Assembly (NCBI RefSeq): GCF_000568255.1
Contig: NZ_KK037166.1
Location: forward strand, 9,875,002 to 9,939,001
DNA length: 64,000 bases
Direction of reading: 5' to 3'
DNA from: Kutzneria sp. 744
GTDB taxonomy: Bacteria > Actinomycetota > Actinomycetes > Mycobacteriales > Pseudonocardiaceae
A model generated the notes under the pieces. It ran no database searches. It was not told where the DNA came from and saw nothing but the letters and a program-made list of their open reading frames with translations. Numbering within the stretch: position 1 is the first letter of the stretch; every line of letters begins with the position of its first letter. Of this stretch, positions 15,914 through 58,106 are shown one piece after another. Made by a program: the position numbers and the translations under genes.

Positions 15914-15934
15914 GCCACCACCTTAGCTTGAGAT

Positions 15935-33616: not shown

Positions 33617-34519
33617 CGGCAGGCCCGGCGCGGCCAGCCGGAGGCCGAAGGTGTCGACCGGGAGATCGCCGACCATGGACCGGATCTTCGCGACCATGTC
33701 GTCCGGCGTGAGGATCGAGACCACGCCGCGCAGATCCTCGATGGTGGCCATGCTCCGGATGCCGGCGTTGGCCACGTTGTTGGAGGCGGCCAGTCGTGCG
33801 GCCTCGTTGAACCAGTGCAGCAGGCCGGGGCCGACGAGGGCGAGCGTTCGTTCGGGGTCCTCGGAGACGAAAAGCCAGGGGCTGCCGGTGAGGTTGAGGC
33901 GCGGTTCCTTGCCGGTCGGCGCCAGTTCCTCCAGGTACATGCGCCAGACGTCCGGATTGGCGGGGCCGGTGTAGGCGTCGCCGTAGAGGGCGGCCCGTCG
34001 GACGGCCGCGCGACTGGTGCCGCCGACCCAGATCGGCGGGTGCGGCTGCTGCACCGGCGGCGGCGTGATCTTCGCGCCGTTGACGGTGTCCCCGTCGAGC
34101 AGCCGGCGCACGATGTCCAGGTTTTCGTTGGCCCGTTTGCCGATGTCCTCGGGGGCGACGCCGTAACCGGCGAACTCGACGGCGTTGTATCCGACGCCGA
34201 CGCCCAGATCGACGCGGCCGTTGGACAGCACGTCCAGCACCGCGACGTCCTCCGCCAGCCGGACCGGGTGGTACAGCGGCAGCAGCGCCACGTTGGTCGC
34301 CACACGCATCGTCGTCGTGCGGGCGGAGATGGCCGTGGCCGCGATCAGCGGCGATGGCACGAAATGGTCATCGGTGAAGTGGTGCTCGCCGATCAGGGCG
34401 TGTCCGAAGCCCAGTGTCTCGGCGTGCGCCAGGTGTTCCACGGTGTCCGCGTACACCGCCGTCGAGCTGCGGGTCTCCGCCGGCGACCGGCGGAAGTCCA
34501 CGATCAGTCCGAAGCGCAT
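33554..34519 (-). CDS. LLM-class flavin-dependent oxidoreductase
   Basis: A 321-residue luciferase-like TIM-barrel monooxygenase: MRFGLIVDFR start, GEHHF (about residue 44), the NVALLPLYHPVRLAEDVAVLDVLSNGR core in part, and PPIWVGGTS. The family uses reduced FMN or F420; substrate is unknown. GGGAGG upstream of the ATG at 34519 fixes the start. It is divergent from a TetR gene and shares with it a promoter region carrying matching inverted repeats, so it is probably repressed by that regulator. Confidence 0.88.
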   Translation of the reverse strand: MRFGLIVDFRRSPAETRSSTAVYADTVEHLAHAETLGFGHALIGEHHFTDDHFVPSPLIAATAISARTTTMRVATNVALLPLYHPVRLAEDVAVLDVLSNGRVDLGVGVGYNAVEFAGYGVAPEDIGKRANENLDIVRRLLDGDTVNGAKITPPPVQQPHPPIWVGGTSRAAVRRAALYGDAYTGPANPDVWRMYLEELAPTGKEPRLNLTGSPWLFVSEDPERTLALVGPGLLHWFNEAARLAASNNVANAGIRSMATIEDLRGVVSILTPDDMVAKIRSMVGDLPVDTFGLRLAAPGLPSRDVDDHLELFASKVIPHFA

Positions 34520-34533
34520 GATCCCTCCCATGT

Positions 34534-34592: not shown

Positions 34593-34608
34593 AGTGAGAG
34601 GAGGGCGC

Positions 34609-35202
34609 ATGCCGACCGTCCGCGCCGACGCGCTCCGCAACCGCGCGCGCATCCTGGCCGCCGCCACCGACGTGTTCGCCGAGCACGGCCCCGACGCCGC
34701 CCTCGACGACATCGCCAAGCGGGCCGCCATCGGCAACGCCACCGTCTACCGGCACTTCGCCGACCGCACTTCCTTGCTGCACGAGGTTGTTCGCTGCGTC
34801 ATGACCCGCACCGCCGACGCCGCCGAGCTCGCCGTCGAGTCCTCGCCCGATTCCTACGCGGCGTTGTGCGGCTTCGTCCACGCCGTCGCCGACCAGCGGA
34901 TCACCATCCTCTGTCCGCTGCTCTCGTCGGCCGACCACGCCGGCCTCGCGGACCTCAAGCAGCGCGTGATCACCGCCGTCGACACCCTCGTCACCGCCGC
35001 TCAGCAGGCCGGTCAGATCCGCTCCGACGTCAGCTTCGCCGACGTGCTCATGGCCCTGGCCCAGCTCACCCGTCCGCCGGCCGGCCGGTCCTGGTCCGAT
35101 GTCGAGCCCTTCGCCCACCGCAGCCTGCGGATCTACCTCGACGGCCTCCGGGCCGAATCCGACCTGCCCGGCCGTCCCGCCACTGTCGACGATCTCCGCT
35201 GA
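34609..35202 (+). CDS. TetR-family regulator
   Basis: The 197-residue protein has an N-terminal TetR helix-turn-helix (RARILAAATDVFAEHGPDAALDDIAKRAAIGNATVYRHFADR, given here only as the region of residues 8-50). The C-terminal ligand domain resembles the SBDCP-type regulators of actinomycetes. GGAGGG lies just before the ATG at 34609. It is divergent from one LLM oxidoreductase and 12 bp upstream of another, so it likely controls both. Confidence 0.9.
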   Translation: MPTVRADALRNRARILAAATDVFAEHGPDAALDDIAKRAAIGNATVYRHFADRTSLLHEVVRCVMTRTADAAELAVESSPDSYAALCGFVHAVADQRITILCPLLSSADHAGLADLKQRVITAVDTLVTAAQQAGQIRSDVSFADVLMALAQLTRPPAGRSWSDVEPFAHRSLRIYLDGLRAESDLPGRPATVDDLR

Positions 35203-35214
35203 TCAGGAGCTGCG

Positions 35215-36075
35215 ATGCGCTTTTCGATCAATCTCCCCAACTTCGGCGACTTCGCCGACGCCCGCACCGTCGCCCGCGTGGCCGTCGAGGCCGAGCAGGC
35301 CGGTTGGGACGGGCTGTTCGTCTGGGATCACCTGGTGCACAACAAGAATCTCCGCCGCGGTGTCCCCTTCGGTGACCCGTGGATGCTGCTCACCGCCGCC
35401 GCCCTGGCCACCACCCGCATCCGCCTCGGCACCCTGGTCACGCCCGTCGCCCGGCGTCGCCCCGAGCAGCTGGCCCGCCAGGTCGCCACCCTCGACTCCC
35501 TCAGCGGTGGCCGGGTCATCTTCGGCGCCGGCCTCGGCGGCCCCATCGAGGACGAGTTCGGCAGCTTCGGCGAACCCACCGATCCCGTCGTCCTGGCCGC
35601 GCGCCTCGACGAGGGCCTCGACCTGCTCGCGCGGTACTGGTCCGGCCACCCCGTCAACCACGACGGGCCGCACTACCAGGTCCGGGACGTCACCCTGCTC
35701 CCCGCCACCGTGCAACAACCCCGCCCTCCGGTCTGGGTCGGCGGCTTCTGGCCCGCCCGCCGCCCTTTCCGCCGCGCCGCCTGCTGGGACGGCGTCGTCC
35801 CCCTGTTCGAAACCGCCCGGCACGGCCAGATCCCGCCCGTCGACCAGGTCCGCGACGTGGTCGCCTACGTCCACGAGCACCGTCCGGACGCGGACGGTCC
35901 CTTCGACGTCGTCCTCGGCGGCGCCACCGATCCCGCCACCGCCGCCGACATCCTCGCCCCCTTGGCCGAGGCCGGCGCCACCTGGTGGGACGAGCGCCAG
36001 CTCCAGACCGGCCCCGACATCGACCGCCTCGAACCGGTCCTCCGCCGCATCAACGCCGGCCCGCCTAAGCCGTGA
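35215..36075 (+). CDS. LLM-class flavin-dependent oxidoreductase
   Basis: A 286-residue luciferase-like protein (MRFSINLPNFGDFADARTVA, DGLFVWDHL, SGGRVIFGAGLGGP, PPVWVGG). Parts such as the F420/FMN-binding GAGLGG loop are clear. It is probably co-transcribed with the TetR gene 12 bp upstream. Sequence and length differ from the first LLM enzyme, so it is not a recent duplicate. It ends 11 bp inside the convergent MFS gene. Substrate unknown. Confidence 0.87.
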   Translation: MRFSINLPNFGDFADARTVARVAVEAEQAGWDGLFVWDHLVHNKNLRRGVPFGDPWMLLTAAALATTRIRLGTLVTPVARRRPEQLARQVATLDSLSGGRVIFGAGLGGPIEDEFGSFGEPTDPVVLAARLDEGLDLLARYWSGHPVNHDGPHYQVRDVTLLPATVQQPRPPVWVGGFWPARRPFRRAACWDGVVPLFETARHGQIPPVDQVRDVVAYVHEHRPDADGPFDVVLGGATDPATAADILAPLAEAGATWWDERQLQTGPDIDRLEPVLRRINAGPPKP

Positions 36076-37249
36076 CGGCCTGACGGCGGCGGGTGCGGGC
36101 GGTGGCGAAGGTGACGACGGCGCAGCAGGCGGCGAGGGTGAGCCAGACGGTGGGGGCGCTGCCGGTGAGAGCGAGGGTCACGCCGATGGAGGGGCCGGCG
36201 AGGTTGCCGATGCCCATCATGGAGTTGACGAGGGCGTTGGCGCGGGTGAGGTCGCGGTCGGGGACGAGGGAGATGAGCCAGGGGTGGAATGAGGCGGAGT
36301 AGGCGCACTCGCCGAGGGCGAAGAGGACGGCGTAGGCGAGTAGACCGGTGAGGCGCAGGGGATACGAGCCGAAAGAGGCGACGGCGGCGCAGAGGTAGCC
36401 GGCGACCCAGAGCAGCATCGCCACGCGGAGGCCGAAGAGCTCGGGGCGCTTCTCCAGCAGGCGGGTGATGAGGGCCTGGCACGAGGCGATCACGCCGACG
36501 TCGACGATGAGCAGCAGGGACACGGTGGACAGGCCCATGGCCATGAGGTTGACGGAGACCAGGGGAGCGGTGGCCTCGAACTGGCTGAGCCCGAAGAGGT
36601 AGACGGCGAGCTGGAAGACGGCGGCGGACAGGGTGATCCGCCACAGCTGGCCGACGGGGGTGGCTGAGGACTCCCGCTCCTCGGCGACGGTGGGCAAGTG
36701 CTTGCGTACGAGCAGAATCGCGATGGTGACGGGCAGCATGCCGACGGCGTTGGCGAGGAACAGATAAGGGATCACGGTGCGGGGCAAGGCGAGTGTGAGC
36801 CCGGCGGCGACGAGTGAGCCCAGGGCGAGGGTGCCGTTCAGCACGGCGTAGCGCCGGGCGAAGACCCGACGGCGTTCCTGGGCGGTCACCAGGGAGTTGA
36901 CGATGGGGATGATGGCGGCGAGGAAGCTGCCCTGACCGACGCCGATGGCCAGCCCGGCGGCGATGACGGCGGGGTAGGAGCCGGCGAGGTAGAGGGCGAA
37001 GTAGCCGACGAACCACAGCAGGGTGCCGAGCACACCGAGGGGCACGCCGCGAAGGCGGAGCACGCCGGTGCTGAGCAGCAGGGCGGTGGCGAGGTTGGCG
37101 CCGCCGGAGCAGGCGTAGAACACCGCCACCCCGGGCGTGCCGACGCTCGGCAGGTCGGACAGGTAGATCGCGGTGTACGGGAACACCAGCCCGAGGCAGA
37201 ACGACGACAGCCCGTGAGTGGCGATGAGGCCATTGACCGGCCTAGGCAC
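36065..37249 (-). CDS. MFS exporter, last gene of the biosynthetic operon
   Basis: The 394-residue, 12-helix-type MFS protein has a short cytoplasmic start (VPRPVNGLIATHGLSSF) and a central loop around RKHLPTVAEERESSA. The GTG start at 37249 overlaps the end of the ATP-grasp gene by 8 bp, so it belongs to the operon. The natural inference is export of the cluster product and self-protection. It lacks close resemblance to the sugar porters elsewhere in the window. Substrate not determinable. Confidence 0.85.
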   Translation of the reverse strand: MPRPVNGLIATHGLSSFCLGLVFPYTAIYLSDLPSVGTPGVAVFYACSGGANLATALLLSTGVLRLRGVPLGVLGTLLWFVGYFALYLAGSYPAVIAAGLAIGVGQGSFLAAIIPIVNSLVTAQERRRVFARRYAVLNGTLALGSLVAAGLTLALPRTVIPYLFLANAVGMLPVTIAILLVRKHLPTVAEERESSATPVGQLWRITLSAAVFQLAVYLFGLSQFEATAPLVSVNLMAMGLSTVSLLLIVDVGVIASCQALITRLLEKRPELFGLRVAMLLWVAGYLCAAVASFGSYPLRLTGLLAYAVLFALGECAYSASFHPWLISLVPDRDLTRANALVNSMMGIGNLAGPSIGVTLALTGSAPTVWLTLAACCAVVTFATARTRRRQAVTA

Positions 37250-38453
37250 GAGTGACCTCGCAGGTGATCAACGCCTCGGCGGCGTCCAGGGCGGCCTGAC
37301 AACAAGTGTTGTCAGAGGTCACGGCGACGAGGGCGGCCAGCCGGGGGATGGCCCCGCGCGGCGGGAGACGCAGCGTGGCGCCGGGCTCGGCCAGGGCGGC
37401 GACGTGCTCGATGCCGGGGACCTCGGCGGCGGCAGCGACATCCACCCGGTGCACCACGGCGTCGAACGGCGGGTACACGAAGCGGACCTCGGCCGAGCGG
37501 GAGTGCGCCGGGGTCAGGTCCGGCACCTGGCCGAGAGACAGCTCGGCCGCGGCGACGACGAGGTCGACGCCGGTGGCGAGGAAGCCGGCGTAGGGGATGA
37601 GGTCCCCGCCGAGTCGGCCGTTGAGCTCGACCAGCCGAGGCCCGGCGGAGGTGAGGCGCAGCTCGGCATGGGTGACGCCGAGTTCGACACCGAGGGCCTG
37701 GTGCGCGCCGACGACGAGATCACGCGCGGCGCGGGCCCAAGGCTCATTTGCCCAGTCCGTCAGCAGGTGCCCGACCTCCTCGAAGTGCGGCGCGAAGCCG
37801 AGTCGCTTGCGAGCGACGTGCACACACTGGACAGCGCCGCCGGACACGACACTGTCGACGCTGATCTCCGGCCCGTCGAGGTACTCCTCGACCAGAACCC
37901 CGTGCCCGGTGGTCAGCGTGGCGAACGCGGCCCCGGCGGCCACGCCGAAGGCCTCCCGCACCTCGTCGACCGACGTGGCGAGGGCGACGCCGACGCTGCC
38001 GGCCAGGGCGCGAGGCTTGACGACAACGGGGAACCCCAGCGAGGAAGCGATGGACACGGCCTCGTCGGCGCTGTGGGCCAGGCCGTGGCGCACGGAGGAC
38101 AACCCGGCGGCCGACAACAGGGACCGGGTCAGGTACTTGTCACGGCAACGGGCGGCGGCCTCGGCCGACATGTGCCGCAGGGACAGCTTCTCGGCGGCCC
38201 GGGCGGTGCTCTCCAGCACGGTCTCGTCCCAGGTGAGCACCCCGGAGTCGGGCCGGGCCAACGCCCGCAGCCCCTCGACCACGGCGGCGTCGTCGGCGAA
38301 GTCGACGACTCGCCAGGAGTCGAGGTAGAGGCTCTGCCACGTGGGCTCGGCCGGCAGCAGGGCGGACAGCCGGTACCGCCGCGCCAGCGAGGCGAACGCG
38401 TACTCGCGGTAGGGCCGGCCGCCGCTGCCGACGACGATCACGTGCGGACTCAT
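37242..38453 (-). CDS. ATP-grasp carboxylate-amine ligase (second in operon)
   Basis: A 403-residue ATP-grasp enzyme. The N-terminal domain begins VIVVGSGGRPYREYAF. The ATP-grasp core holds LGFPVVVKPRALAGSVGV (nucleotide-binding Lys and loop), VEEYLDGPEISVDSVV, and the Mg-binding end HAELRLTSAGPRLVELNGRLGGD, where Glu and Asn are metal ligands. The family forms amide bonds through acyl phosphates, as in dipeptide and pseudo-peptide antibiotics. The start overlaps the reductase stop (ATGA). Near the C-terminus the reading SDNTCCQ is created by an exact iterated palindrome. Substrates unknown. Confidence 0.85.
   Translation of the reverse strand: MSPHVIVVGSGGRPYREYAFASLARRYRLSALLPAEPTWQSLYLDSWRVVDFADDAAVVEGLRALARPDSGVLTWDETVLESTARAAEKLSLRHMSAEAAARCRDKYLTRSLLSAAGLSSVRHGLAHSADEAVSIASSLGFPVVVKPRALAGSVGVALATSVDEVREAFGVAAGAAFATLTTGHGVLVEEYLDGPEISVDSVVSGGAVQCVHVARKRLGFAPHFEEVGHLLTDWANEPWARAARDLVVGAHQALGVELGVTHAELRLTSAGPRLVELNGRLGGDLIPYAGFLATGVDLVVAAAELSLGQVPDLTPAHSRSAEVRFVYPPFDAVVHRVDVAAAAEVPGIEHVAALAEPGATLRLPPRGAIPRLAALVAVTSDNTCCQAALDAAEALITCEVTRA
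37298..37313. repeat. Iterated palindrome, exact copy (GACAACAAGTGTTGTC)
   Basis: The arms extend to 9 bp (CTGACAACA / TGTTGTCAG). It lies in the ATP-grasp gene and imposes ACT TGT TGT codons and two adjacent cysteines near the C-terminus. Confidence 0.75.
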
Positions 38454-39025
38454 CCGACGGCCTTGGCGCGCAACGGTTCCAGCGCCTCGGCGACGCTGTG
38501 CAGCTCGTCCAGCATGCCCTCGGCCGAGGCGGACATGGCGTCGGTGCCGGTGAAGGCGCCGTCGCCGTCGATGTGCTGGCCGATGAAGTGGATGGCCACG
38601 CACTCGGGCACCGGCACCATCTTCAGCGTGGTGACGACCTGCTTGGTCATCTGCGCGGCCCGCAGGCCGGCCGAGGTGTTGCCGTAGCTGACGATGCCGA
38701 CCGGCTTGTACTGCCACTCGAAGTACAGGTAGTCGATGGCGTTCTTCAGCGCCGCGTTGATGGAGTAGTTGTACTCGGGGGCGACGAACACGAAGGCGTC
38801 GGCGGCGTCCACCGAGGCGCTCCAGTCCTTGGTGTGCTGCTTGGTGTAGTTGCGCTCGGACGGGTGGTTGGGCTCGTCCAGCAGCGGCAGGCCGATCTCG
38901 GCCAGGTCGACCAGTCGCACCTCGAACCGGCCGTGCTTCTCGGCGATCTTCGTGAACCACTCGGCCACCGCCGGGCCGGAGCGGCCGGGGCGGGTGCTGG
39001 CGATGATCACGTGCAGGCGGGGCAT
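38450..39025 (-). CDS. NAD(P)H-dependent FMN reductase (flavodoxin-like)
   Basis: A 191-residue flavodoxin-fold reductase: STRPGRSG at residues 10-17 binds the FMN phosphate, APEYNYSINAALKNAIDYL is the conserved active-site segment, and SYGNTSAGLRAA follows. It could supply reduced FMN or reduce a quinone-type intermediate of the pathway. The spacing to the PPOX gene upstream is 27 bp and the stop overlaps the next ATG, so it is within the operon. Confidence 0.9.
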   Translation of the reverse strand: MPRLHVIIASTRPGRSGPAVAEWFTKIAEKHGRFEVRLVDLAEIGLPLLDEPNHPSERNYTKQHTKDWSASVDAADAFVFVAPEYNYSINAALKNAIDYLYFEWQYKPVGIVSYGNTSAGLRAAQMTKQVVTTLKMVPVPECVAIHFIGQHIDGDGAFTGTDAMSASAEGMLDELHSVAEALEPLRAKAVG

Positions 39026-39052
39026 CTCGGAAAGCCTTTCGGGTGAAGGGGT

Positions 39053-39472
39053 TCAGGCCGGCAGGTAGCCGTAGGCGTGGTCGATGCGGAAGCGGACGAC
39101 GAGGCGGCGGTCGGCGACCATGGCCCGCCGGTAGTCGTCCCAGTCGGGGTGCTCGCCCTGCACGCCGCGGAACACCTCGATGAGCTCCTCGACGGCCTTG
39201 TCGTGCGGGTCGGCGGCCACGGCCGACAGCTCGGCCACGCCCTCGAACACCGCGTAGGCGGAGCCTTCGGGCAGCGCGACGTGCAGGCTCACCCGGGGGT
39301 CCCGACGCAGGTTGGCGATCTTGGCGCGGTCGTCGGTGGTGGACAGGCGCACCATGCGCTCCGTGGCGTCGTAGTCGAAGTCCACATTGGACAGCTGGGG
39401 GCGCCCGTCGCGTTTGATGGTCACCAGCGCGCCGCGGCGGCGGGTGTCGAGCAGGGAGAGGTAGTCCGGCAT
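39053..39472 (-). CDS. PPOX-class (pyridoxamine-oxidase-fold) F420/FMN-dependent protein
   Basis: A 139-residue split-barrel protein (RRRGALVTIKRDGRPQLSNV, STTDDRAKIANLRRDPRVSL) matching the small actinobacterial PPOX-class F420-dependent reductases. Deazaflavin or flavin binding is expected; it could reduce a double bond in the pathway product. A TGGGTGGG stretch precedes the ATG at 39472. An 86-bp gap separates it from the cyclase gene; an internal promoter is possible there, but none was recognised. Confidence 0.85.
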   Translation of the reverse strand: MPDYLSLLDTRRRGALVTIKRDGRPQLSNVDFDYDATERMVRLSTTDDRAKIANLRRDPRVSLHVALPEGSAYAVFEGVAELSAVAADPHDKAVEELIEVFRGVQGEHPDWDDYRRAMVADRRLVVRFRIDHAYGYLPA

Positions 39473-39558
39473 GGGTGGGTCCCTTCGGTCACGTGAATTC
39501 CAGTATCGGGAAGTGCGCCGGCCGTTCCCGGCGGACTTGACGTTGTACGGACCGGATC

Positions 39559-40323
39559 TCACGGACGGGTGACGAGGGCGAGCACCCTGGTCGGGCTGCC
39601 GGAGCCGCCGACGATCGGCAGCGGCGACGTGATGACCACAGCGCCGGTCGGCGGCAGCAGCGCGAGATTGCGCAGCTGCGTCAGGCCGTACTTGCCGGCC
39701 CCGTGCAGGAACCAGTGGCACGGGAACGGCTGCTCGAACTCGTCGGCCAGCCCGGCGTCGGTGCCGACGGTCTCCACGCCGAGGCCGATCACCGGCGTCT
39801 CCGACGCCAACCACTGCGCGCAGTCCTCCGACACGCCCGGGGTGTGCCGGCCGTTGATGAACGCCTTGGCGTCGCCGCCACGGGCGTCCCACCCGGTCCG
39901 GTACAGCAGCCAGCCGCCGTCGGGCAGCGGGCCGTGTTCGTTGATCCACGCCTCGACGTGTTCCCGGCGCAGCCGGAAGTCCGGGTCTTGGGCCACCTCG
40001 TGCGACAGGTCGATCACCGCCGCCGGCGCGACCAGCCGGCCCGGCGGAACCTGCGAGACGTCCTGGGTGCCCTTGCCGGACAGCCAGTGCGACGGCGCGT
40101 CGAAGTGGGTGCCGGTGTGCTCGGACAGCCGGATGTTGTTCCAGTGCACGGTCGGCCCGGCGGCGTCGAACTCGCTGATCACCTCGCGGGAGAACGGCCA
40201 TGGCTGGCCGCGGTCGGCCGGCAGGTCGATGATCGGCGTGTCCTCGGACAGCGGCGCGGTCAGGTCGATCACCTCGACCGCACCGGTGTTCAAGGCGGTC
40301 AACAGGTCGGCGAGCACGGTCAT
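39559..40323 (-). CDS. Kynurenine formamidase-like cyclase
   Basis: A 254-residue metal-dependent hydrolase of the cyclase/KynB fold. HTGTHFDAPSHW (from about residue 69) is the family's metal-binding H-x-G-T-H-x-D motif. In context it should hydrolyse N-formylkynurenine to kynurenine, the second step after tryptophan dioxygenase. The family also contains isatin hydrolases and unrelated cyclases, so the substrate is inferred from neighbours. The ATG overlaps the stop of the aminotransferase (ATGA). Length is slightly above the bacterial KynB norm. Confidence 0.8.
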   Translation of the reverse strand: MTVLADLLTALNTGAVEVIDLTAPLSEDTPIIDLPADRGQPWPFSREVISEFDAAGPTVHWNNIRLSEHTGTHFDAPSHWLSGKGTQDVSQVPPGRLVAPAAVIDLSHEVAQDPDFRLRREHVEAWINEHGPLPDGGWLLYRTGWDARGGDAKAFINGRHTPGVSEDCAQWLASETPVIGLGVETVGTDAGLADEFEQPFPCHWFLHGAGKYGLTQLRNLALLPPTGAVVITSPLPIVGGSGSPTRVLALVTRP

Positions 40324-41255
40324 GCCGACACCTCCTGTCGGGCGGGCACGAGCGTGCTCCACTCGGGATGGTCGCTGCGGCCGCGGGCGACGTCGTCGTA
40401 GTGGTTCTGCAACAGGGCGGTGATCGGGCCGCGTCGGCCGCTGCCCACGGGGGTTCGGTCGACGCTGGTGACGGGCAGCAGTTCGGCCAGCGTGCCGCAG
40501 AGGAAGAGCTCGTCGGCCACGTACAGCTCGGTGCGGTCGATCTCGCGGCGGTGCAAGGAAAGTCCAAGCCTCTCCTCGGCCAGGCGGGCCACGGTGTCGA
40601 CGGTGATGCCCTCCAGAACGCCGCTGGTGCCCGGCGGCGTGACGAGCTCGCCGTCGCGGACCATCACCACGCATGCGCCCGGAGCCTCGGCCACGGTGCC
40701 ACGCTGGTTCAGCAGCAGCGTCGTGTCGTAACCATTGCGCACGGCTTCGTGCTGGGCCAGCCGGCTGTTGTGGTAGTTGGCGCCGGTCTTGATCCGTGGC
40801 GGCATGGAGTCGTCGCTGATCCGCCGCCACGACGCGATGCTCGCAGCGGCACCGACTTCGTGCTTGGGGGAGCGCGGCATCGGCAGTGCGGTGATGTGCA
40901 CGCCGGTGGACGTGGTGTACGCCAACGGGTCGAAGTTCGGGCCCTGGTCGAAGTAGGCCACCACGCAGAGATGCGTGTCGACCGTGAGGTCGTTGGCCCG
41001 CACCAGGTCCAGGCATGCCCGCTTGAGCTCGGCGTCGCTGTGGGCGATCCCCATGTGCAGGCTCTTCATCGAGCGCCGCAGCCGGGCCAGGTGATCGTCC
41101 AGGCGGAACGCCCGCATGGCGCCGTCATCGGCGTAGGCCCGGACGCCCTCGAAGACGTTGGCGCCCCAGAAGGCGCCCTGGCTGCGGGCGTGCACGACGC
41201 ACTCGTCCCACCGGACCAGACGGCCGTTCTGCCAGGCGTAATCGGGGGCGGTCAT
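40320..41255 (-). CDS. Class IV (fold IV) aminotransferase, BCAT-like
   Basis: A 311-residue fold-type IV PLP enzyme. Early motifs GAFWGANVFEGVRAY and HLARLRRSMKSLHM match the branched-chain aminotransferase group. The PLP lysine is K156 in RIKTGANYHNS. LNQRGTVAEAPGACVVMV and GVLEGITVDTV are the phosphate-binding and substrate segments. It may transaminate a branched-chain or aryl 2-oxo acid. In this operon, deamination of (hydroxy)kynurenine to a quinoline acid is an attractive but unproven role. It overlaps both neighbours by 4 bp. Confidence 0.85.
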   Translation of the reverse strand: MTAPDYAWQNGRLVRWDECVVHARSQGAFWGANVFEGVRAYADDGAMRAFRLDDHLARLRRSMKSLHMGIAHSDAELKRACLDLVRANDLTVDTHLCVVAYFDQGPNFDPLAYTTSTGVHITALPMPRSPKHEVGAAASIASWRRISDDSMPPRIKTGANYHNSRLAQHEAVRNGYDTTLLLNQRGTVAEAPGACVVMVRDGELVTPPGTSGVLEGITVDTVARLAEERLGLSLHRREIDRTELYVADELFLCGTLAELLPVTSVDRTPVGSGRRGPITALLQNHYDDVARGRSDHPEWSTLVPARQEVSA

Positions 41256-42847
41256 GCGGGGGATCCCTTCACGAGTGTGCGGTCGACGCCGGCGGAGAAT
41301 CGTAGGGCCGCGGCGAAATCCTCGCCCTTGGTGCCACGGGCGGCGAGATGTCCATCCGGTCGTGCGACCCACCAGGTGCCGCCGACCGTGCCGTATCGGG
41401 CGAGCGCGGCGGCGTCGGACGATCGAACGACCCGCGCGTCGGCGGGAACGCCATCCGTCGGTGCGCCCTCGGGCATCACCACGACCAGGTCACACGAGCT
41501 GGAACGGGCCTGCTGCAACAACTCGGCGGCGCGACGGCCGGTGGTGGCGAAGCACAGTGCGACAAAGCGGTGCCCGAGCAGCCGCCGCAGCCGCAACGGC
41601 TCCTCGACGATCGGCAGGTCCGGCGCGAACGACCCCAGCAGGGAGTCGTCGGACGGCTGCACGATGGGCGAGCAGGTGTAGACGTACGGCTCGGCCATGC
41701 GCCCGCTGTTGACGTGCTTCTGGGCCAGCCCGAGCGAATGCGACAGTCCCAGCAACGCGGCCCGGGCCCAGCGGCGAAGGCGGTTGGGCGGCACCATGAA
41801 CCGAATGGTGGCCTCGGTGACCCGCAGGTTCTCGCGAGCCGCCGCGTACCGCTCGACGTGGTAGGACTCCAGCAACTCCTCGCCGGCTTCTCCATTGTGG
41901 ATGGACGCGAGCTTCCAGGCCAGGTTGTCGGCGTCCTGGATGCCGCTGTTCATGCCACGGGAACCGTACGGGGGCAGGGAATGCGCGGCGTCGCCGGCGA
42001 ACAGCACCCGCCCGACCCGCAGGCGCGCCACGACCCGCTGGTGGAACCGGTAGGTGCTGACCCAGTCGATCTCGTACGGGATGTCGCCGATCACCGCGCG
42101 TACCCGCTGGTCGAAGCGGCCGTCGAGGCGCTCGGCCACGATGTCGGCGTCCGGCGGCAACTGCCAGTCGATGCGCCAGATGTCGTTGGGCTGTGGGTGC
42201 ATCACCAGCTGCCGGCCGGGATTGAAGGACGGGTCGTAGTGGAAGTGCCGTTCCTTGGCCAGCGGCAGTTTCGCCTTGATGTCGGTGATGAGGAACCGGT
42301 CCTTGTGCGTGTAGCCGGTCCAGTCCACCTGCATCAACTCACGCATCTTGCTGCGCACGCCGTCGGCCGCGACGAGGTGGGCGAACCGCAGATCCCGCTC
42401 GCCGTCAGGGGTGTCGACCCGTACGGTCACGCCGTCTGAGTCCTGTGCCACCTCGACAACCTCGTGGCCCCAACGCAGATCGCACAGCGGGTTGGCCTCG
42501 GCCGCCTCGACCAACACCTGCTCGATGCGGTGCTGCGAGATGTTCACGAACGGGCCGAACCCGAGGCCGCGCGGGTACTCGGCGGAGCGGATGACCCGGT
42601 TGCGCACGTAGGTGTGCGCCACGGTCCACGTCACGCCTTCGTCCCGAATCGTTTCGGCACAACCGAACTTGTCCAGGATCTCCAGCACGTCGCCCTGGAT
42701 CAGGCAGGCCTTGGAGCCCTGCTTGAGCAGCTCGGGCCTGGCCTCCAGCAGCACGGTCGGCACTCCGAACCGGGCCAGCCGCAGCGCCGCGACCAGGCCG
42801 ACCGGGCCGGCCCCGACGATGCCGACGGGTGCGTCGAAATCAGTCAT
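41252..42847 (-). CDS. FAD-dependent aromatic hydroxylase
   Basis: The 531-residue group A flavoprotein monooxygenase has the dinucleotide motif VGIVGAGPVGLVAALRLA at residues 8-25, the DG motif AADGVRSKMRE near 160, and GDAAHSLPPYGSRGMNSGIQ near 285, which binds the FAD ribityl/phosphate. A C-terminal thioredoxin-like region follows, as in MhpA-type hydroxylases. In context it may hydroxylate kynurenine, anthranilate or a quinoline. It is longer than classical kynurenine 3-monooxygenase and closer in layout to phenol/phenylpropionate hydroxylases. Confidence 0.88.
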   Translation of the reverse strand: MTDFDAPVGIVGAGPVGLVAALRLARFGVPTVLLEARPELLKQGSKACLIQGDVLEILDKFGCAETIRDEGVTWTVAHTYVRNRVIRSAEYPRGLGFGPFVNISQHRIEQVLVEAAEANPLCDLRWGHEVVEVAQDSDGVTVRVDTPDGERDLRFAHLVAADGVRSKMRELMQVDWTGYTHKDRFLITDIKAKLPLAKERHFHYDPSFNPGRQLVMHPQPNDIWRIDWQLPPDADIVAERLDGRFDQRVRAVIGDIPYEIDWVSTYRFHQRVVARLRVGRVLFAGDAAHSLPPYGSRGMNSGIQDADNLAWKLASIHNGEAGEELLESYHVERYAAARENLRVTEATIRFMVPPNRLRRWARAALLGLSHSLGLAQKHVNSGRMAEPYVYTCSPIVQPSDDSLLGSFAPDLPIVEEPLRLRRLLGHRFVALCFATTGRRAAELLQQARSSSCDLVVVMPEGAPTDGVPADARVVRSSDAAALARYGTVGGTWWVARPDGHLAARGTKGEDFAAALRFSAGVDRTLVKGSPA

Positions 42848-44094
42848 CGGGTCCTCGCAGTCTCGTCGGTCTCCTCGTCGGCCACGTCAACGGCGTGGAA
42901 CACCGGAACGGTCCGCACGGCCTTCAGATACGGCGTGCCCTCGGTGTATCCGGTGCCGGACGCCTCGCCGAGCATGCGCACAGCCAGCCGGTAGTGGGTG
43001 TTACGCCATCGCATCAGCGCGCGGGCGAATCTCTTCATGCCCTCGGCGATCCGTTCGCGGTCCTCCTTGCTGACGCCGGAATCGCACAGCTCACGGAAGG
43101 AACAGTCCAAAGTGTCCTGTCCGGCCAGCACGCGCTCTCGTACGTCCGGCGCGGAGTGGAAGGCGGCCGAATCGACGCGGTCGGGGTCGGGCACCCGGCA
43201 CAGCGACTCGACGAGCTTGTAGTTGCGGGACTGGATCGCGCTCGCGCCTTCGGTGAACTCGCGGAAGGTGCGGAACGACTCGACCTGCATGGTGGCCAGC
43301 ATGGAAAACAGCGGCGCGGATTCCCGCAGCGCGTTCTCGGCGGTGGCCAGGAAGTGCGCGGCCCGATCGATCTCGCGGTCGGCCAGCGCGGCCGTCACGC
43401 CGCGAAGCAGCACGGCCAGCAGGGAGAACGTCGTCTCGAACGTCTGGAGCACACGCAGGAACAGGTACTCGTCGTGCGCGGTGTAGACCGGCAGCACGCT
43501 GAGCTCCTGCGCCCGTTCCTCACTGAACGACATGTCCGCCTGCACGACGGAACACGCCTGCCGCGCCAGCTCCAGCGGCTCGGTGGCGGTGAGGCCGCCG
43601 TCGAGGGACATCCGGGCCAGCACGGGTCGGATCACGCGCAGGCCGTGCTTGCAGCGCTTGACGACCAGGTCCGGATCGGGCCGCATCTCCGGCAGCAGCG
43701 CGGTCGCGCCCTCGGAGGCGGCGACCTCGAACGCCAACGCGTCGGCCACCAGCTGCGCGATCAGTCGGTCGCACCGTGAACGGGCGAACGGCGCCTGCTC
43801 CACCGGGTCGTCCACAGTGGGCAGTTGCAGCAGTGCGAGGGCGAGGTAGGTCGGGTAGTCGTAGCGCTGGTCCGGCTTGTCCAGCGCGGTGTCCAGAAAG
43901 GACGCAAGGGTCTGGATGTGTTCCCAGGGGCCGTGCATGGACGGCAGCCGGTCGCGGACCTCGGCCAGCAGGGACAGCAGCTCGGGGCGCACGAAGTGCT
44001 TGCCGACACGGCGGTAGTGGCCGACGACGGCGGCGTACGGGAACTTCTTGGGGTCGGATTCGTGGAGCCAGGTGCGTAACTCAGCCGTGGACAT
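42844..44094 (-). CDS. Large divergent protein of the tryptophan 2,3-dioxygenase superfamily
   Basis: This 416-residue all-helical protein is well above the usual 250-300 residues. Tell-tale segments are SFRTFREFTEGASAIQSRNY, the counterpart of the SGFQS substrate loop, and RWRNTHYRLAVRMLG followed by SGTGYTEGTPYL, the counterpart of the heme-ligand helix and GTGGS loop; the His in THY is the likely heme ligand. It probably binds heme and oxygenates an indole or tryptophan-derived substrate. A second, shorter dioxygenase gene is in the same operon, so this one may act on a different intermediate. Assignment is by motif only. Confidence 0.65.
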   Translation of the reverse strand: MSTAELRTWLHESDPKKFPYAAVVGHYRRVGKHFVRPELLSLLAEVRDRLPSMHGPWEHIQTLASFLDTALDKPDQRYDYPTYLALALLQLPTVDDPVEQAPFARSRCDRLIAQLVADALAFEVAASEGATALLPEMRPDPDLVVKRCKHGLRVIRPVLARMSLDGGLTATEPLELARQACSVVQADMSFSEERAQELSVLPVYTAHDEYLFLRVLQTFETTFSLLAVLLRGVTAALADREIDRAAHFLATAENALRESAPLFSMLATMQVESFRTFREFTEGASAIQSRNYKLVESLCRVPDPDRVDSAAFHSAPDVRERVLAGQDTLDCSFRELCDSGVSKEDRERIAEGMKRFARALMRWRNTHYRLAVRMLGEASGTGYTEGTPYLKAVRTVPVFHAVDVADEETDETARTR

Positions 44095-45172
44095 GGTTCT
44101 GTCGCTCGATTCGGGAAAGTGCCGCGCAGAGCGCGTCGATGTCATCGCTGTTGCTGTGGTGGTGGAACGACAGGCGCACGACGTCGCCACGGGGGCTGAC
44201 CGCGATGTCGTGCTCTGTCAACCGCTTCGCGAGGCCGACAGGATCGGCGTCGACCAGCCCGATGTGCGCGCCGCGCCGATCGCGGGGCAGGGCCCGGACC
44301 GGGCGGCCCATCGCGGTCAGGCGCTCGACGGCCAGGTCGGTGAGCCCGAGGACATGCTCGCGGACGGCGGTGAGGTCGGCCCGGGCGACCAGCCGCAGGC
44401 CTGCGTTAGCCGTGTAGACGGCCGGCACGGCGGGGGTGCCCGTCTCGAATCTCGTTGCCGTGGAGGCGAAATCCAGCCGCCGCGGGTCGAAGGCGAACGG
44501 GTCGACCCGGCCGAACCAGCCGGTCAGCTGCGGATCACGATCGGTGCGCTCGGGGGAGCGCGCGTAGAGGAAGGCGAGGCCGGGCAGGCCCAGCAGGTAC
44601 TTCATGGTGCCGGCGACGAGGTAGTCGCAGCCGAGCCGGTCGACGTCGACGGGTTCGGTGCCCACGGCCTGGTAGGCGTCGACGAACACCTCGGCGCCGG
44701 CCTCATGGGCGCGCTGGACGACGTCGGCGACCGGCAGCCGCTCGCTGTACTGGTACCCGGTCATGGGCACCGACACGAGCCGCGTGTCGGCGTCGATCTC
44801 GCCGCTGAACACGACTTCCGCGCCGCGAGGGCATTGCGCCAACCAGACGTGGGCCACGGACGGGAACTCCAGGTCTGTGGTCACGATCTTCGATCGCCGA
44901 GCGAAGTCCATTGTGGAGGCGACCTGGTACGCCCCGACGGAGGCGTTGGGCACCACGGCGATCTGCTCCGGCCGAGCGCCGACCAGCGCCGCGAAGCCGT
45001 GCCGGGCCTGGCGCAGCTGGTCCTCGAAGCGGTCCCAGGACATGTCGGCCCGCATCTGCTCCAGCGCGGCGTCCACGTCCACCGACCGCGCGCCGAGGCT
45101 GCAACTGGCCAGGTGGACCTTGGTGCCCAGCACGGGAAAGTGGGCCCGGAAGGCGGCGGGGGACAGGCTCAC
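44081..45172 (-). CDS. Kynureninase-like class V PLP enzyme
   Basis: A 363-residue fold-type I PLP enzyme. K191 in AGTMKYLLGLPG is the aldimine lysine; FVDAYQAVG supplies the PLP Asp; TGWFGR-DPFAFDP and RFETGTPAVP match the C-terminal kynureninase/desulfurase pattern. With dioxygenase and formamidase neighbours, hydrolysis of (hydroxy)kynurenine to (hydroxy)anthranilate plus alanine is the simplest role. It lacks some hallmarks of canonical kynureninase and could be a lyase or desulfurase instead. The GTG start overlaps the dioxygenase stop (GTGA). It has a full-length paralogue at 19130-20266. Confidence 0.75.
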   Translation of the reverse strand: MSLSPAAFRAHFPVLGTKVHLASCSLGARSVDVDAALEQMRADMSWDRFEDQLRQARHGFAALVGARPEQIAVVPNASVGAYQVASTMDFARRSKIVTTDLEFPSVAHVWLAQCPRGAEVVFSGEIDADTRLVSVPMTGYQYSERLPVADVVQRAHEAGAEVFVDAYQAVGTEPVDVDRLGCDYLVAGTMKYLLGLPGLAFLYARSPERTDRDPQLTGWFGRVDPFAFDPRRLDFASTATRFETGTPAVPAVYTANAGLRLVARADLTAVREHVLGLTDLAVERLTAMGRPVRALPRDRRGAHIGLVDADPVGLAKRLTEHDIAVSPRGDVVRLSFHHHSNSDDIDALCAALSRIERQNHVHG

Positions 45173-45906
45173 GACGACGTCCCGAGGTGGTACCGGCCCA
45201 TCGGGCCGGTCTCGGTCAGCTCGGTGCGCAGCCGCCACAGCTCGGGGAAGAACCGGTCCTCGATCAGCCGGGCCAGCACGTCGGTGCGGGTGCCCTGGGT
45301 GCCGAAGACCTCGTTGCCGATGACCCGGGTGAGCATCTTGTAGTGCCGCACCCGCCACAGCGACACCCGCTCGTCGAACTCGATCATCGCCTCGGCCAGA
45401 CGGTGCTGGGGGCTGTGCACCTGGCTGCGGTACAGCTCGGCCAGGTCGACGCCCTCGGCGGTCACGTAGTCGGTGAACGCGCGGCCGAGCGCGTTGCCCT
45501 GCCGGTGGATCGAACGCCAGCCGGGGGAGTCCGCGCCGGAGCCGTGGCCGAGCACAGTCCGCATGGTCTGGAAGTCCCACGGCGACAGGTGGTGCATCAT
45601 CTCCAGCTGTTCGGTCACCAGAACGAGGCCGAGCGAGGCCCGGGTCAGCAGGGCGACCGTGGCGTCGAGGTCACGGGCGCGGAGCCGGTCGGTCGCGGTG
45701 ACGAGCTCAGCGTGGGCGAGCTTGAGCCACAGCTCGGTGGACTGGTGCACCACCTGGAACAGCAGCTCGTCGCGGTGCACGACCTCCTCGGGCCGCCGCT
45801 GCAACGACAGCAGCGTGCCCGTGTGCATGTAGCGCTCGTAGTCGTTGCCGCCGTCGCCGTCGAGGATCTGCTCCGAGTAGTCCCGCAGGACCTGGTCGTT
45901 GTTCAT
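45169..45906 (-). CDS. Tryptophan 2,3-dioxygenase (KynA-type)
   Basis: The 245-residue heme dioxygenase carries FQVVHQSTELWLK (active-site His, about residue 54), LSPWDFQTMRTVLGHGSG, and the C-terminal SLWRVRHYKMLTRVIG plus GTQGTRTD, where the His of RHY is the expected proximal heme ligand. It should open the indole ring of L-Trp to N-formylkynurenine. The canonical SGFQS loop is replaced by SGADSPGW, a variant that may mark altered substrate use. The start overlaps the upstream ATP-grasp stop (ATGA). I leave the gene symbol blank because two relatives are present. Confidence 0.85.
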   Translation of the reverse strand: MNNDQVLRDYSEQILDGDGGNDYERYMHTGTLLSLQRRPEEVVHRDELLFQVVHQSTELWLKLAHAELVTATDRLRARDLDATVALLTRASLGLVLVTEQLEMMHHLSPWDFQTMRTVLGHGSGADSPGWRSIHRQGNALGRAFTDYVTAEGVDLAELYRSQVHSPQHRLAEAMIEFDERVSLWRVRHYKMLTRVIGNEVFGTQGTRTDVLARLIEDRFFPELWRLRTELTETGPMGRYHLGTSS

Positions 45907-47147
45907 CGGGCACCCACCCGCTCGACCGGTTCCGCGCTGACCCGGAAGCCCTTGGCCGTCGCCTCCAGGGCTTCGGCCACCTCGGCGCTCGACCGGCCAC
46001 GGAAGCGGAACCGGCCGCCGACGTGCTCGTAGTAGGCATCGGCCTCAGGCAGGATCTCGCCGACGCCGAGCAGCGCCTCCGCGTACGGCCCGGGCTGGCC
46101 ACCGACCATCGATGTCACCTCGGTGATCCGGCACGGGCGAGCCGCGGGTGCCGGGATCAGCAGCCAGCCGCCGACCTCGACAACACGTGTTGTCGGGGGC
46201 AGCTGGGGCTCAAGGCCCAGCTGGAGGTCGAAGGCGGCGCGCATGAGGTCGTAACCGTGCAGGTCACGCCAGATGAACGGGATCTCCGAGCCGCCGGCCC
46301 GGGCCCCGACCTCCAGGAAGGTGCAGGTCTCGCCGTCGAAGAACACTTCGAGGTGCAGGGGAGTAGGCCGGTCGGTGAGGGCACGGAGGAAGTCGGTGGC
46401 GGCGGCGCGAACCGCGCCGATCACCAACGGGTCGTCCACCTCGACCGAGCCGAGGAAGGAGCCCTCGCGGAAGCCCAGGCAGGTGTTGACGTAGCGAGAA
46501 ACCCGCAGGCAGGCCAGATCCGTGCCGGTGAACACGCCGTCCACGTGATGGATCGGGTGCGGATTGAAGGCCTGCACCAGCATCGGCTCGTCGGTGAGCT
46601 CGAACGAGGCCAGCGCCGCCGGGCCGTCCAGCACCACGACGCCGGCGCTGGAGCTGCCGATGCGGGGCTTGAGCACGACCGGCCAGCCATGGACGTCGGC
46701 GAAGTCGAGCACCGACTCCGGTCCGGTCACCGTGGCGAACGCGGGGATGGGCAGCCCGGCGGCCGCGATGGCCTGGCCCATCAGGAACTTGTCGCGGAAC
46801 CTCAGCAGATCGGCCGGCCGGTGTCCCGCCACGTCCCACTCCTCGCGCAGCTGGGCGCCGACGAGCAGGTCGTCCTCCTTCAATGCCACGATGCGGTGCG
46901 GCGGACCGTACTTCGAAACGAGTTCGGCCAATGCCGCGCGGGCCTGCGACAAATCGTCGGTGGCGTCGACGAGTGCGATGTCGGTCGCGGTCGGCGGCAC
47001 CGAACCGAGGCCGATCTCGGTGCTGATGTAGGTGACCCGATGTGTCGAATGGTCGAGATAGCGGTGGTAGTCGGCGTAGTGCTCGCGCCACCGGTTGATG
47101 ACGACGACGTGCGGGCGCGCGTCATCGCCCCCCGTTGCTCTGGTCAT
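45903..47147 (-). CDS. ATP-grasp carboxylate-amine ligase (first in operon)
   Basis: A 414-residue ATP-grasp ligase. The N-terminal domain starts VVVINRWREHYADYHRYL. The core holds RFRDKFLMGQAIAAAGLPIP, GWPVVLKPRIGSSSAGVVVL (nucleotide loop and Lys), and LHLEVFFDGETCTFLEVGARAGGSEI, where the acidic residues bind Mg. It is predicted to activate a carboxylate as an acyl phosphate and join it to an amine. It differs in sequence from the other ATP-grasp enzyme of the operon, so a distinct bond is likely. It contains an exact iterated palindrome encoding PTTRVV. Confidence 0.87.
   Translation of the reverse strand: MTRATGGDDARPHVVVINRWREHYADYHRYLDHSTHRVTYISTEIGLGSVPPTATDIALVDATDDLSQARAALAELVSKYGPPHRIVALKEDDLLVGAQLREEWDVAGHRPADLLRFRDKFLMGQAIAAAGLPIPAFATVTGPESVLDFADVHGWPVVLKPRIGSSSAGVVVLDGPAALASFELTDEPMLVQAFNPHPIHHVDGVFTGTDLACLRVSRYVNTCLGFREGSFLGSVEVDDPLVIGAVRAAATDFLRALTDRPTPLHLEVFFDGETCTFLEVGARAGGSEIPFIWRDLHGYDLMRAAFDLQLGLEPQLPPTTRVVEVGGWLLIPAPAARPCRITEVTSMVGGQPGPYAEALLGVGEILPEADAYYEHVGGRFRFRGRSSAEVAEALEATAKGFRVSAEPVERVGAR
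46179..46194. repeat. Iterated palindrome, exact copy (GACAACACGTGTTGTC)
   Basis: Fully symmetric to the centre; with the flanking C and G it is an 18-bp perfect palindrome. On the minus strand it encodes TTRVV as ACA ACA CGT GTT GTC. Confidence 0.8.
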
Positions 47148-47159
47148 GTCAGGATCCGT

Positions 47160-48473
47160 TCAGGAAGTTCTGGTTGTGAAGACACAGGTCCCGCGGGTGC
47201 CGGTATTGGAATACGACACCACGGCCCCGTCGGCGGGCTTGAGCGCCCGCACGAATCCGCCGGCATAACCGGCGGGGTCGACAAAAATCCCCCAGTTCGC
47301 CACCCATTCCTCTCCTGTGTTCGTCTCGGCGTTCAGCACCGGCTCGGTCCTCGGCCGGACCCGGCGCTGCACCACGTGGTCGCCGGTCCGGCGCTCGGCC
47401 AGGGCCCGCTCCCACTGCTCGTCGGTGACGGAATGCCCGACCACGGTGCCGACGCCGCCGTAGCCGACGCCCGGCTTGAGCACCAGATTGCGGCGCTCGT
47501 TCCGGCAGTGCTGGACCAGTTCGTCCTGGTCAGCGGCGGTGCCGAGTAGTCGCGTCCATGGCACGACCCGGTCGACGACGGCGTGCTCGTCGGGCGTGAA
47601 GGTGGCGCGGACGTCCGGGTCGTGCAGCATCGCCAGGCTGCCCTTGCTCGCGTGCACCCCGCCTTCCAACGGTGTGAACAACACGGTCTTGGGGGCGGCG
47701 ATCAGCAGGTCCAGCTTCTCCTGCCCGGCCGGGTCGTCGACGAGCTCGCCGGCGACGAAGTAGCGCAGCACGACGTCGAGCGGCCGGCCCCGCAGCGTGA
47801 TGTGGCCGTTCCGCTCGCCGAGCTCGTCGATCTCGCCCAGCAACAGGTCGATTCCCTGATCCCGCAACGCTTCCCGTAGCGCGGTGAACACGTGGGCGTG
47901 GGCGGCGAGACCGTTGGTGCTCTCGATCAGCGCGACCACCGGCTCGTCGACGAGGGCGGCTGCGCGCAGGGCCGCGGCGACGCGGGGAATCGTGTCGACG
48001 TGGCCGAGTTCGTGCCGCCGGGCGAAGTCGGCGAACTCGGGCCGGGCCAGGAAGGCGCGGTTGAGTTGCGCGGTGTCGAGGCCGCCGAGTTCGCTGCCGA
48101 TGTTGAGTTCCAGGAGCTTGAACGAGGTGCCGTCGTGGTAGGCGTCGGCCCGGGCGTACAACGGCGGCGCGCCGGTGGCGCCGCGGCACATCAGCTCGGC
48201 CAACCGGTCGTCCATGCCCAGCGCGGCGCAGTAGCGGCGGAGGTCACCGTCGAACAGGCGGCCGGGCAGCGAAACCAGAATGTCGAAGACAGCGGCGAGA
48301 TCGGTGGCGAAATCACCGATCTCCCGTTCGGGGACAAACAGCGGGCGATCGAGCTGGACCGTACCATAAGAAGCGGCATAGGCCTCGGGAAGGCGCAGCT
48401 CACGCGCGGTTTCGCGGAGCGGTTTCGACACCGAGGATTCCGCGAGATAATGTTTGGTGACCACGTTCGGCAC
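47160..48473 (-). CDS. ATP-grasp-like / glutathionylspermidine-synthase-like ligase, first gene of operon
   Basis: The 437-residue cytoplasmic protein carries LLELNIGSELGGLDTAQLNR (about residues 125-145) and RRNLVLKPGVGYGGVGTVVG (about 345-365), the latter like the nucleotide loop of circularly permuted ATP-grasp and glutathionylspermidine-synthase-type enzymes. I infer a third amide-forming ligase, with lower certainty than the other two. GTG 48473 has GGGG upstream and is preferred over GTG 48536, which lies in a palindromic leader. The downstream ATP-grasp gene begins 12 bp after the stop. Confidence 0.65.
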   Translation of the reverse strand: MPNVVTKHYLAESSVSKPLRETARELRLPEAYAASYGTVQLDRPLFVPEREIGDFATDLAAVFDILVSLPGRLFDGDLRRYCAALGMDDRLAELMCRGATGAPPLYARADAYHDGTSFKLLELNIGSELGGLDTAQLNRAFLARPEFADFARRHELGHVDTIPRVAAALRAAALVDEPVVALIESTNGLAAHAHVFTALREALRDQGIDLLLGEIDELGERNGHITLRGRPLDVVLRYFVAGELVDDPAGQEKLDLLIAAPKTVLFTPLEGGVHASKGSLAMLHDPDVRATFTPDEHAVVDRVVPWTRLLGTAADQDELVQHCRNERRNLVLKPGVGYGGVGTVVGHSVTDEQWERALAERRTGDHVVQRRVRPRTEPVLNAETNTGEEWVANWGIFVDPAGYAGGFVRALKPADGAVVSYSNTGTRGTCVFTTRTS

Positions 48474-52923: not shown

Positions 52924-52942
52924 GCAGGGACACCCTCCTTGT

Positions 52943-53062
52943 GAAACAAATGTAACGCATCTGTAACAGGGTTCAGGAAGTGCAGCACTGGTTGTTGGAG
53001 ATGTCAAGAAAGACTGGTGCACAACGAAACAATGCGTCGGACAATGCCGTAACAAATGAAAC
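52943..53062. promoter_or_regulatory. Repeated 14-bp boxes upstream of the GH30 gene
   Basis: GAAACAAATGTAAC (52943-52956) and GTAACAAATGAAAC (53049-53062) share the consensus GWAACAAATGWAAC in an unusually A/T-rich stretch upstream of the glycosidase. They are likely regulator sites; the regulator is unknown. Confidence 0.4.
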
Positions 53063-53158
53063 AAAGCTGCATTTCGGGTCCGGGCCGCGGTCCCTCGACT
53101 CGGCCGGACGGCCCAGACGCGCGGCGGTCGGGCCGGGCCGGTGCCATACTCGGTGATC

Positions 53159-58011: not shown

Positions 58012-58106
58012 CAGGATGGTTCATCCTTCCGGACGATCGACGCTGCGGCCGAACGACCTCTATACCTGGATGGCGAGTTCCGGCCGCACCGGGAGGAGAG
58101 CCCGCC

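Follow-up and report, generated by a model that had tools for sequence, protein, structure and literature searches.

Twelve closely packed genes, here called A to L, were analysed in a 64,000-nucleotide stretch of the Kutzneria sp. 744 genome (contig NZ_KK037166.1 of assembly GCF_000568255.1, positions 9,875,002 to 9,939,001 of the forward strand; hereafter the window). On balance, we lean toward reading A to L as a specialised-metabolite cluster that works without a nonribosomal peptide synthetase (NRPS), in which C, D, E, F and H would make an ortho-aminoaryl unit from tryptophan and the remaining genes would assemble and export an amide. The evidence supports a tailoring set linked to tryptophan that could be transcribed as one unit, with three ATP-grasp-type genes and without an NRPS.

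All twelve genes are minus-strand open reading frames that together fill 36065-48473, with A at the 48473 end and L at the 36065 end, and in the host genome, an 11.65-Mb single contig, the operon lies at 9.91-9.92 Mb. Start codons were chosen by us. Successive spacings from A to L are +12, -4, -4, -14, -4, -4, -4, +86, +27, -4 and -8 nucleotides, that is, an overlap at 8 of the 11 junctions and a short gap at the other three. A family scan of 31 window proteins, the 12 operon products and 19 others, detected no NRPS or polyketide synthase (PKS) family. An earlier note on this DNA had described a twelve-gene operon free of NRPS and PKS genes, joined by stop-start overlaps or short gaps, and its gene count, coordinates, gene list and account of the packing all proved correct. 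A promoter scan (0 promoter-like sites, shuffle mean 0.4) and a terminator scan (3 terminator-like sites, shuffle mean 3.5) were uninformative.

Gene C (45169-45906, 245 residues) encodes a short relative of tryptophan 2,3-dioxygenase (TDO), and gene E (42844-44094, 416 residues) a large haem oxygenase relative from the same superfamily. Both match the Trp_dioxygenase family PF03301 (C at 83.7 bits, cut-off 34.9; E at 53.6 bits), as expected from the two dioxygenase-superfamily proteins reported earlier. Given that C scores 121 bits against the equivalog model TIGR03036, below the cut-off of 390.7, it is classed by sequence as a member of the TDO superfamily and not as an assigned TDO. Equivalents of xcTDO His55, Arg117, Ser124, His240 and Thr254 are retained in C (numbering counted on the alignments), and in xcTDO the substrate carboxylate and amino group are bound by residues of this set that include Arg117 and Thr254. 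In the C alignment (A3), His188 is invariant, and the lid Arg116 and the Thr of the GTQGT active-site loop are each kept in 11 of 12 sequences. Arg116 and His188 are separated by 72 residues, compared with 123 in xcTDO, and about 50 mid-region residues are absent. According to PMC12312684, this loop reads SLGGR in MarE and GTGGS in TDO and steers mono- versus dioxygenation; MarE, itself a TDO relative, can make 2-oxindole there but is mainly a dioxygenase without ascorbate. The mid-region of MarE is described as simplified in PMC11904535. C looks TDO-like by its loop and more MarE-like by its short mid-region; as its loop is GTQGT and not SLGGR, the two differ there, and a different substrate is likely.

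The C-terminal half of E is TDO-like, and it is preceded by about 180 extra N-terminal residues, an extension absent from C. In E the distal His is replaced by Leu, with the lid Arg, the Ser, the Thr and the proximal His retained, the last of these invariant in 15 of 15 aligned sequences. C and E keep substrate and haem residues of the xcTDO type, and haem binding and turnover are predicted for both. Loss of the distal His was considered as a mark of a changed reaction and was dropped because the ordinary TDO of the same genome (L031, 9932-10744) also lacks it, with Thr where xcTDO has distal His55.

The overall shape of E was assessed on an AlphaFold model (pLDDT 85). Foldseek placed TDO best (5.4e-4), with PrnB and IDO1 at about 1.5e-2 and TM about 0.34. 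VIA-align returned near-ties: SO4414 (Z 16.4, 273 residues), PrnB (Z 16.2, 263/415, residues 17-405), TDO (Z 16.1, 215 residues, 181-408, the C-terminal part only) and IDO1 (Z 15.7, 270 residues). PrnB and IDO pair only about 50 more E residues than TDO does; their alignments run from residue 14-17 to 402-405 (263-270 residues paired) at 9-16% identity, whereas Foldseek favours TDO and the sequence match is to TDO. The predicted fold thus lies between TDO and IDO/PrnB, and we call E tentatively IDO/PrnB-like in overall shape. Membership of the PrnB family by sequence was rejected, as Pfam gives only PF03301 and the PrnB/IDO likeness comes from VIA-align of the predicted fold alone.

Gene H (39559-40323, 254 residues) belongs to the Cyclase family and was most similar to isatin hydrolase in a profile search (5nmp, 8.4e-75, against 2e-5 for KynB). 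Isatin hydrolases are characterised by a metal motif HxG[T/A]HxDxPxH, a pocket WXW/FXW and GLQC/GLAS (Sommer et al., PMC6117287). The metal motif is retained in H (HTGTHFDAPSHW; HTGTHFDAPSH in the window protein), and H shares the fold family and strong overall similarity with these enzymes, but its pocket differs. VHW or VYW replaces WXW/FXW in all 10 H proteins from operons that were aligned, out of 14 loci with H (L038, L043, L054 and L057 were excluded from this alignment), and GLTQ replaces GLQC/GLAS in all 11 alignment rows. A 62% identical paralogue in the same genome keeps WYW yet also has GLTQ, so the Val change is the operon-specific one. We read H as a cyclic amidohydrolase whose amide substrate would be akin to isatin but bigger or otherwise altered. 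Measured against KynB, H carries GLTQ at the position of the I(L/I)E motif and scores 33.2 bits with TIGR03035 (cut-off 223.05).

The best profile match of gene D (44081-45172, 363 residues), a class V pyridoxal-phosphate (PLP) enzyme of the Aminotran_5 family, was kynureninase 1qz9 (2.2e-51), followed by cysteine desulfurase (1.8e-35). D scores 51.9 bits with the kynureninase model TIGR01814, below 246.4. The PLP lysine (Lys227 of 1qz9) is retained, and Met stands at the position of Tyr226, which is presumably catalytic in kynureninase; among 13 aligned family members the residue before the lysine is Met in 11 and Ser or His in the other two. Gene F (41252-42847, 531 residues) encodes a flavin adenine dinucleotide (FAD)-dependent aromatic hydroxylase (FAD_binding_3, PF01494 at 8.5e-68; PRK08132 at 529 bits over 416). 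Its closest solved structure was PnpA (2e-42), followed by other aromatic and polyketide oxygenases, and no entry named kynurenine 3-monooxygenase (KMO) was present among the best 60 of 67 matches.

Two alternatives to the reading of A to L as an ortho-aminoaryl amide cluster concern the chemistry of these five genes. In the first, C or E would act as a MarE-like monooxygenase to give an oxindole or dioxindole amino acid, H would open the lactam and D would cut the side chain. The nearest relatives of H, isatin hydrolases, open an indole-derived lactam, and C, like MarE, has a reduced mid-region. The formation of 2-oxindole by MarE (PMC12312684) and the course proposed for the iad auxin pathway, via dioxindole compounds, isatin and isatinate (PMC12633357), provide precedents. 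The loops of C and E, however, contain GT and not SLGGR, H has lost one aromatic residue of the isatin pocket motif, and MarE is mostly a dioxygenase when ascorbate is left out (PMC12312684). We regard this oxindole chemistry as possible but rather unlikely.

The second alternative is plain kynurenine logic, as the earlier note had proposed: C would form N-formylkynurenine, H would deformylate it, D would release anthranilate, F would hydroxylate this and the ligases would add amino acids, with E a duplicate of C. This course agrees with the TDO haem and substrate residues of C, with a GTQGT loop nearer to GTGGS than to SLGGR, and with kynureninase as the closest solved relative of D. It is at odds with H, which lacks both the KynB I(L/I)E motif and close KynB similarity, with the Met in place of Tyr before the PLP lysine of D, and with the absence of a KMO-named entry from the best matches listed for F. 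An extension found in E and not in C, together with the proximity of the two genes in 16 of 19 loci (see below), would also be odd for a mere duplicate. We consider it unlikely that the operon follows this course as a whole. The tryptophan-linked character of the set thus stood, while a clear kynurenine-pathway identity for H, D and F did not: the formamidase-like cyclase is nearest to isatin hydrolase with neither published signature complete, the kynureninase-like enzyme is without the expected Tyr, and the FAD hydroxylase best resembles PnpA and polyketide oxygenases. As H, D and F are not clear kynurenine-pathway enzymes, kynurenine and hydroxyanthranilate are at most possible intermediates.

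Genes A, B and K would supply the amide bonds. A (47160-48473, 437 residues; an alternative in-frame GTG lies upstream at 48536) reads as a circularly permuted, glutathione-synthetase-like ATP-grasp ligase. It had no Pfam match at 0.001 and matched a eukaryotic-type glutathione synthetase in a profile search (5oes, 1.1e-5). Its structural model is of low confidence (mean pLDDT 60.7, with residues 307-437 nearly all below 50), and for this reason the fold matches were used only jointly with the profile match; all 32 Foldseek matches at E<=0.001 were glutathione, homoglutathione, glutathionylspermidine or trypanothione synthetases, a GSS-like effector or YgiC/YjfC. B (45903-47147, 414 residues) is a divergent RimK/PRK02186-like protein, weakly assigned: it scores 47.4 bits with PRK02186 (cut-off 625) and 30.6 with rimK_fam (143.4), and every Pfam match was below cut-off. 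By tblastn, B matched the K region at 27-40% identity, and K the B region at 25-29%, in 7 of 8 related loci. K (37242-38453, 403 residues) is an L-amino-acid-ligase-like enzyme with ATP-grasp_4 at 59.9 bits, over the cut-off of 27, and LAL_C2 at 23.7, under 29.4. It weakly matches the models of DdaF from dapdiamide and BacD from bacilysin synthesis (50.9 and 43 bits), far below their equivalog cut-offs of 840 and 850, and A to L differs from those systems in grouping three ligase types in one operon. The two to three ATP-grasp ligases of the earlier note are best counted as three types, with B the weakest call and A assigned through a low-confidence fold and a profile.

The remaining tailoring genes were named as before by their family models. 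G (40320-41255, 311 residues) is an IlvE-like class IV aminotransferase (Aminotran_4) that passes the equivalog TIGR01122 (250.6 over 245.55) and falls just below the cut-off of NF005146 (271.3; 279). I (39053-39472, 139 residues) is an F420-dependent PPOX-class oxidoreductase of the Rv1155 type (TIGR03618, 129 bits, cut-off 79), J (38450-39025, 191 residues) is an NADPH-dependent flavin mononucleotide (FMN) reductase (FMN_red, PF03358, 4.6e-39), and L (36065-37249, 394 residues) is a major facilitator superfamily (MFS) transporter and probable exporter (PF07690, MFS_1, 9e-22).

In order to compare the operon with other genomes, E was used as the query: a scan of one genome per species gave 13 loci and whole-genome samples added more. 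Nineteen distinct loci with E identity of at least 43%, the window counted in, were compared. L036 and L029 are the same Kutzneria buriramensis locus, counted once, with L036 excluded from the protein families built for alignments; a Microbispora amethystogenes duplicate (G074) was not counted. Barring single missing genes or a contig end, the order A to L is kept in 8 of the 19 loci: the window, G002, G325, Geodermatophilus sp., Streptomyces antnestii (J not found), Actinophytocola xinjiangensis (I not found), Saccharomonospora sp. CUA-673 (B, D and H split across frames) and a Cellulomonas metagenome-assembled genome (MAG) whose contig stops within K (I not found). The frame-split rows of B, D and H from L043 were used as found. 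The same gene order, which the earlier note had suggested looking for, thus recurs as a unit across actinobacteria, and the arrangement is therefore not due to chance. Since A to L is conserved across several actinobacterial lineages, its product should be useful to the hosts. A methyltransferase gene follows H in at least five loci (L035, L040, L043, L045 and L054). One of these, Actinacidiphila cocklensis (L035, 6656-16211), holds a worn copy of the operon in which A is shortened (45% identity) and K is reduced to a 50-residue match, with no match to B, I or L.

The genes C, D, E, F and H form a separable core, found together in 14 of the 19 loci. Five of these (Umezawaea, two Microbispora, G217 and Actinosynnema) have the core without matches to A, B or K within the DNA stretch compared. 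In Umezawaea, the two Microbispora and G217, a small Rieske protein is encoded between F and H and a GNAT gene is common to all four; the two Microbispora and G217 have three further genes in common, another of GNAT type (FemAB_like, below cut-off), one resembling aspartyl/asparaginyl hydroxylases and one for a short-chain dehydrogenase/reductase (SDR). The Actinosynnema core is accompanied by a methyltransferase, as well as an SDR and ABC transporters, the latter two named from sequence reading. Directly after the Umezawaea core (L034, about 13398-16313) lies a gene for a long ATPase with an ABC_tran domain that reads as a UvrA paralogue; UvrA paralogues can confer self-resistance to DNA-damaging products.

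C is near E in 16 of the 19 loci, the exceptions being K. buriramensis, Smaragdicoccus and a Nocardiaceae MAG. A group of C, E and D, without the remaining genes, is present in G049. In G317 (L055, 787-10373), a distant C/E pair (28% and 43%) adjoins a C-A-PCP-KS hybrid NRPS-PKS and an O-methyltransferase. As a tentative view, which we hold less firmly than the cluster reading above, C and E may be a portable pair of unlike haem oxygenases, one a shortened TDO and the other an extended, IDO/PrnB-like partner. With D, which lacks the usual Tyr, and H, with its altered pocket, they would break tryptophan down oxidatively in an undescribed way and yield a new aminoaryl unit, which evolution would have plugged into ATP-grasp, GNAT-type (Microbispora and Umezawaea) or, for the distant C/E pair, NRPS-PKS assembly. 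In the K. buriramensis locus (L036, 10001-21215), E (70%) has neither C nor D nearby and lies next to two ATP-grasp genes and an acyl-CoA-dehydrogenase-like flavoprotein gene, with radical SAM, MFS and methionyl-tRNA-synthetase-like genes also read from the sequence nearby; the locus may represent another type of cluster that employs E. In three more distant E loci (L056, L058 and L059; 36-38%) no C was detected at 1e-4, and G398 (E 41%) is likewise more distant and outside the 19.

Under the favoured reading of A to L as an NRPS-free amide cluster, the indole ring would be oxygenated by haem chemistry, by C and by E acting on the same or the next intermediate. H would hydrolyse the resulting cyclic or N-formyl amide, D would cut or rearrange the amino-acid side chain by PLP chemistry and F would hydroxylate the aryl ring. 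G would supply or convert a branched-chain-type alpha-amino acid; K, A and B would each form one ATP-driven amide bond, up to three in total; I and J would carry out reductive tailoring, and L would export the product. The sequence comparison itself establishes the gene content, the close packing, the recurrence of the unit, the family memberships at the strengths given above, the altered active sites and a core that can stand apart. We infer every substrate, the order of the steps and the product of this route. Several points weigh against it. B is weakly assigned and the model of A is of low confidence. Other ATP-grasp enzymes are involved in protein modification or in the synthesis of compounds like glutathione, and tryptophan may not be the substrate of one or even both of the TDO relatives. 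Three of the 19 loci have E but none of C, D and F; in Smaragdicoccus (L041, 9962-11284) it stands alone among housekeeping genes read as alaS, aroC and aroB, with an antiporter-like gene adjoining, which means that E also occurs outside clusters of this type and may in that genome have a role beyond specialised metabolism.

The operon was also compared with known systems that use tryptophan in related ways. Quinomycin-type cassettes for quinoxaline or 3-hydroxyquinaldic acid make a tryptophan-derived aryl acid with the help of a TDO and a hydrolase together with a flavin enzyme and an aminotransferase, and they employ a P450, an AMP ligase, carrier proteins and an NRPS; A to L differs in its ATP-grasp ligases, its additional haem oxygenase and its relative of isatin hydrolase. 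The pyrrolobenzodiazepine (limazepine), actinomycin and mycemycin cassettes of actinobacteria follow a tryptophan-derived (hydroxy)anthranilate logic, whereas A to L is without an NRPS and its D, F and H are not clear kynurenine-pathway enzymes. The parts of A to L are of known kinds, and their combination appears to be without a description in the literature searched, curated cluster databases aside.

It is nevertheless conceivable that A to L is an already characterised cluster that the searches missed. The operon is widespread enough to have been studied before, and curated databases of biosynthetic gene clusters and subscription literature lay outside the comparison. Literature searches aimed at the combination (ATP-grasp with kynurenine, kynureninase or isatin hydrolase, and cluster) gave no description in the openly searchable literature, curated cluster databases aside, and we think prior characterisation improbable. 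Genome mining probably overlooks clusters that carry no signature of an NRPS, a PKS or a ribosomally synthesised and post-translationally modified peptide (RiPP).

Ordinary tryptophan catabolism was located elsewhere in the genome, at 1.74 Mb, where a TDO with the GTGGS loop and a kynureninase lie with an alpha/beta-hydrolase, a putative formamidase, and an Lrp-type regulator (the formamidase and Lrp names were given from sequence reading); a third TDO relative lies at 0.63 Mb. A to L is thus not the only tryptophan-degrading set of this genome. The E family is rare: among 394 genomes sampled from the class, 9 had a match at E<=1e-40, the own genome included and some at only 38-45% identity, with up to 4 first-look candidates scored per genome. 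Genes resembling isatin hydrolase and kynureninase typically belong to the breakdown of indole and tryptophan. Even so, a role for A to L in detoxification or primary catabolism was rejected as very improbable because the ordinary genes are found in this separate cluster and because a transporter and three ATP-grasp-type genes would be out of place in such a role.

With two unlike haem oxygenase relatives and three unlike ATP-grasp-type ligases in one unit, A to L can be tested as a source of a new amide chemotype and of reactions new to the TDO/IDO/PrnB and isatin-hydrolase families.

Several genes around the operon were read from the window sequence. Upstream of A and divergent from it, a plus-strand piece from 48681 to about 49200 reads as the start of an FAD/NAD-binding oxidoreductase that continues in another frame, and it looks like a degenerate remnant. 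At the other end, luciferase-like monooxygenase genes at 33554-34531 (minus strand) and 35215-36075 (plus strand) flank a TetR-type regulator (34594-35202, plus strand). The second of these is convergent with L and overlaps its end, and a homologue also follows the operon in G002; it may be syntenic background or a cluster member. A GH30 glycosidase with ricin-type lectin domains (51037-53253, minus strand) adjoins the operon in G002 too. About 9.5 kb upstream of the operon start, a plus-strand gene at 57966-60407 encodes an Orn/Lys/Arg decarboxylase with all three OKR_DC_1 domains.

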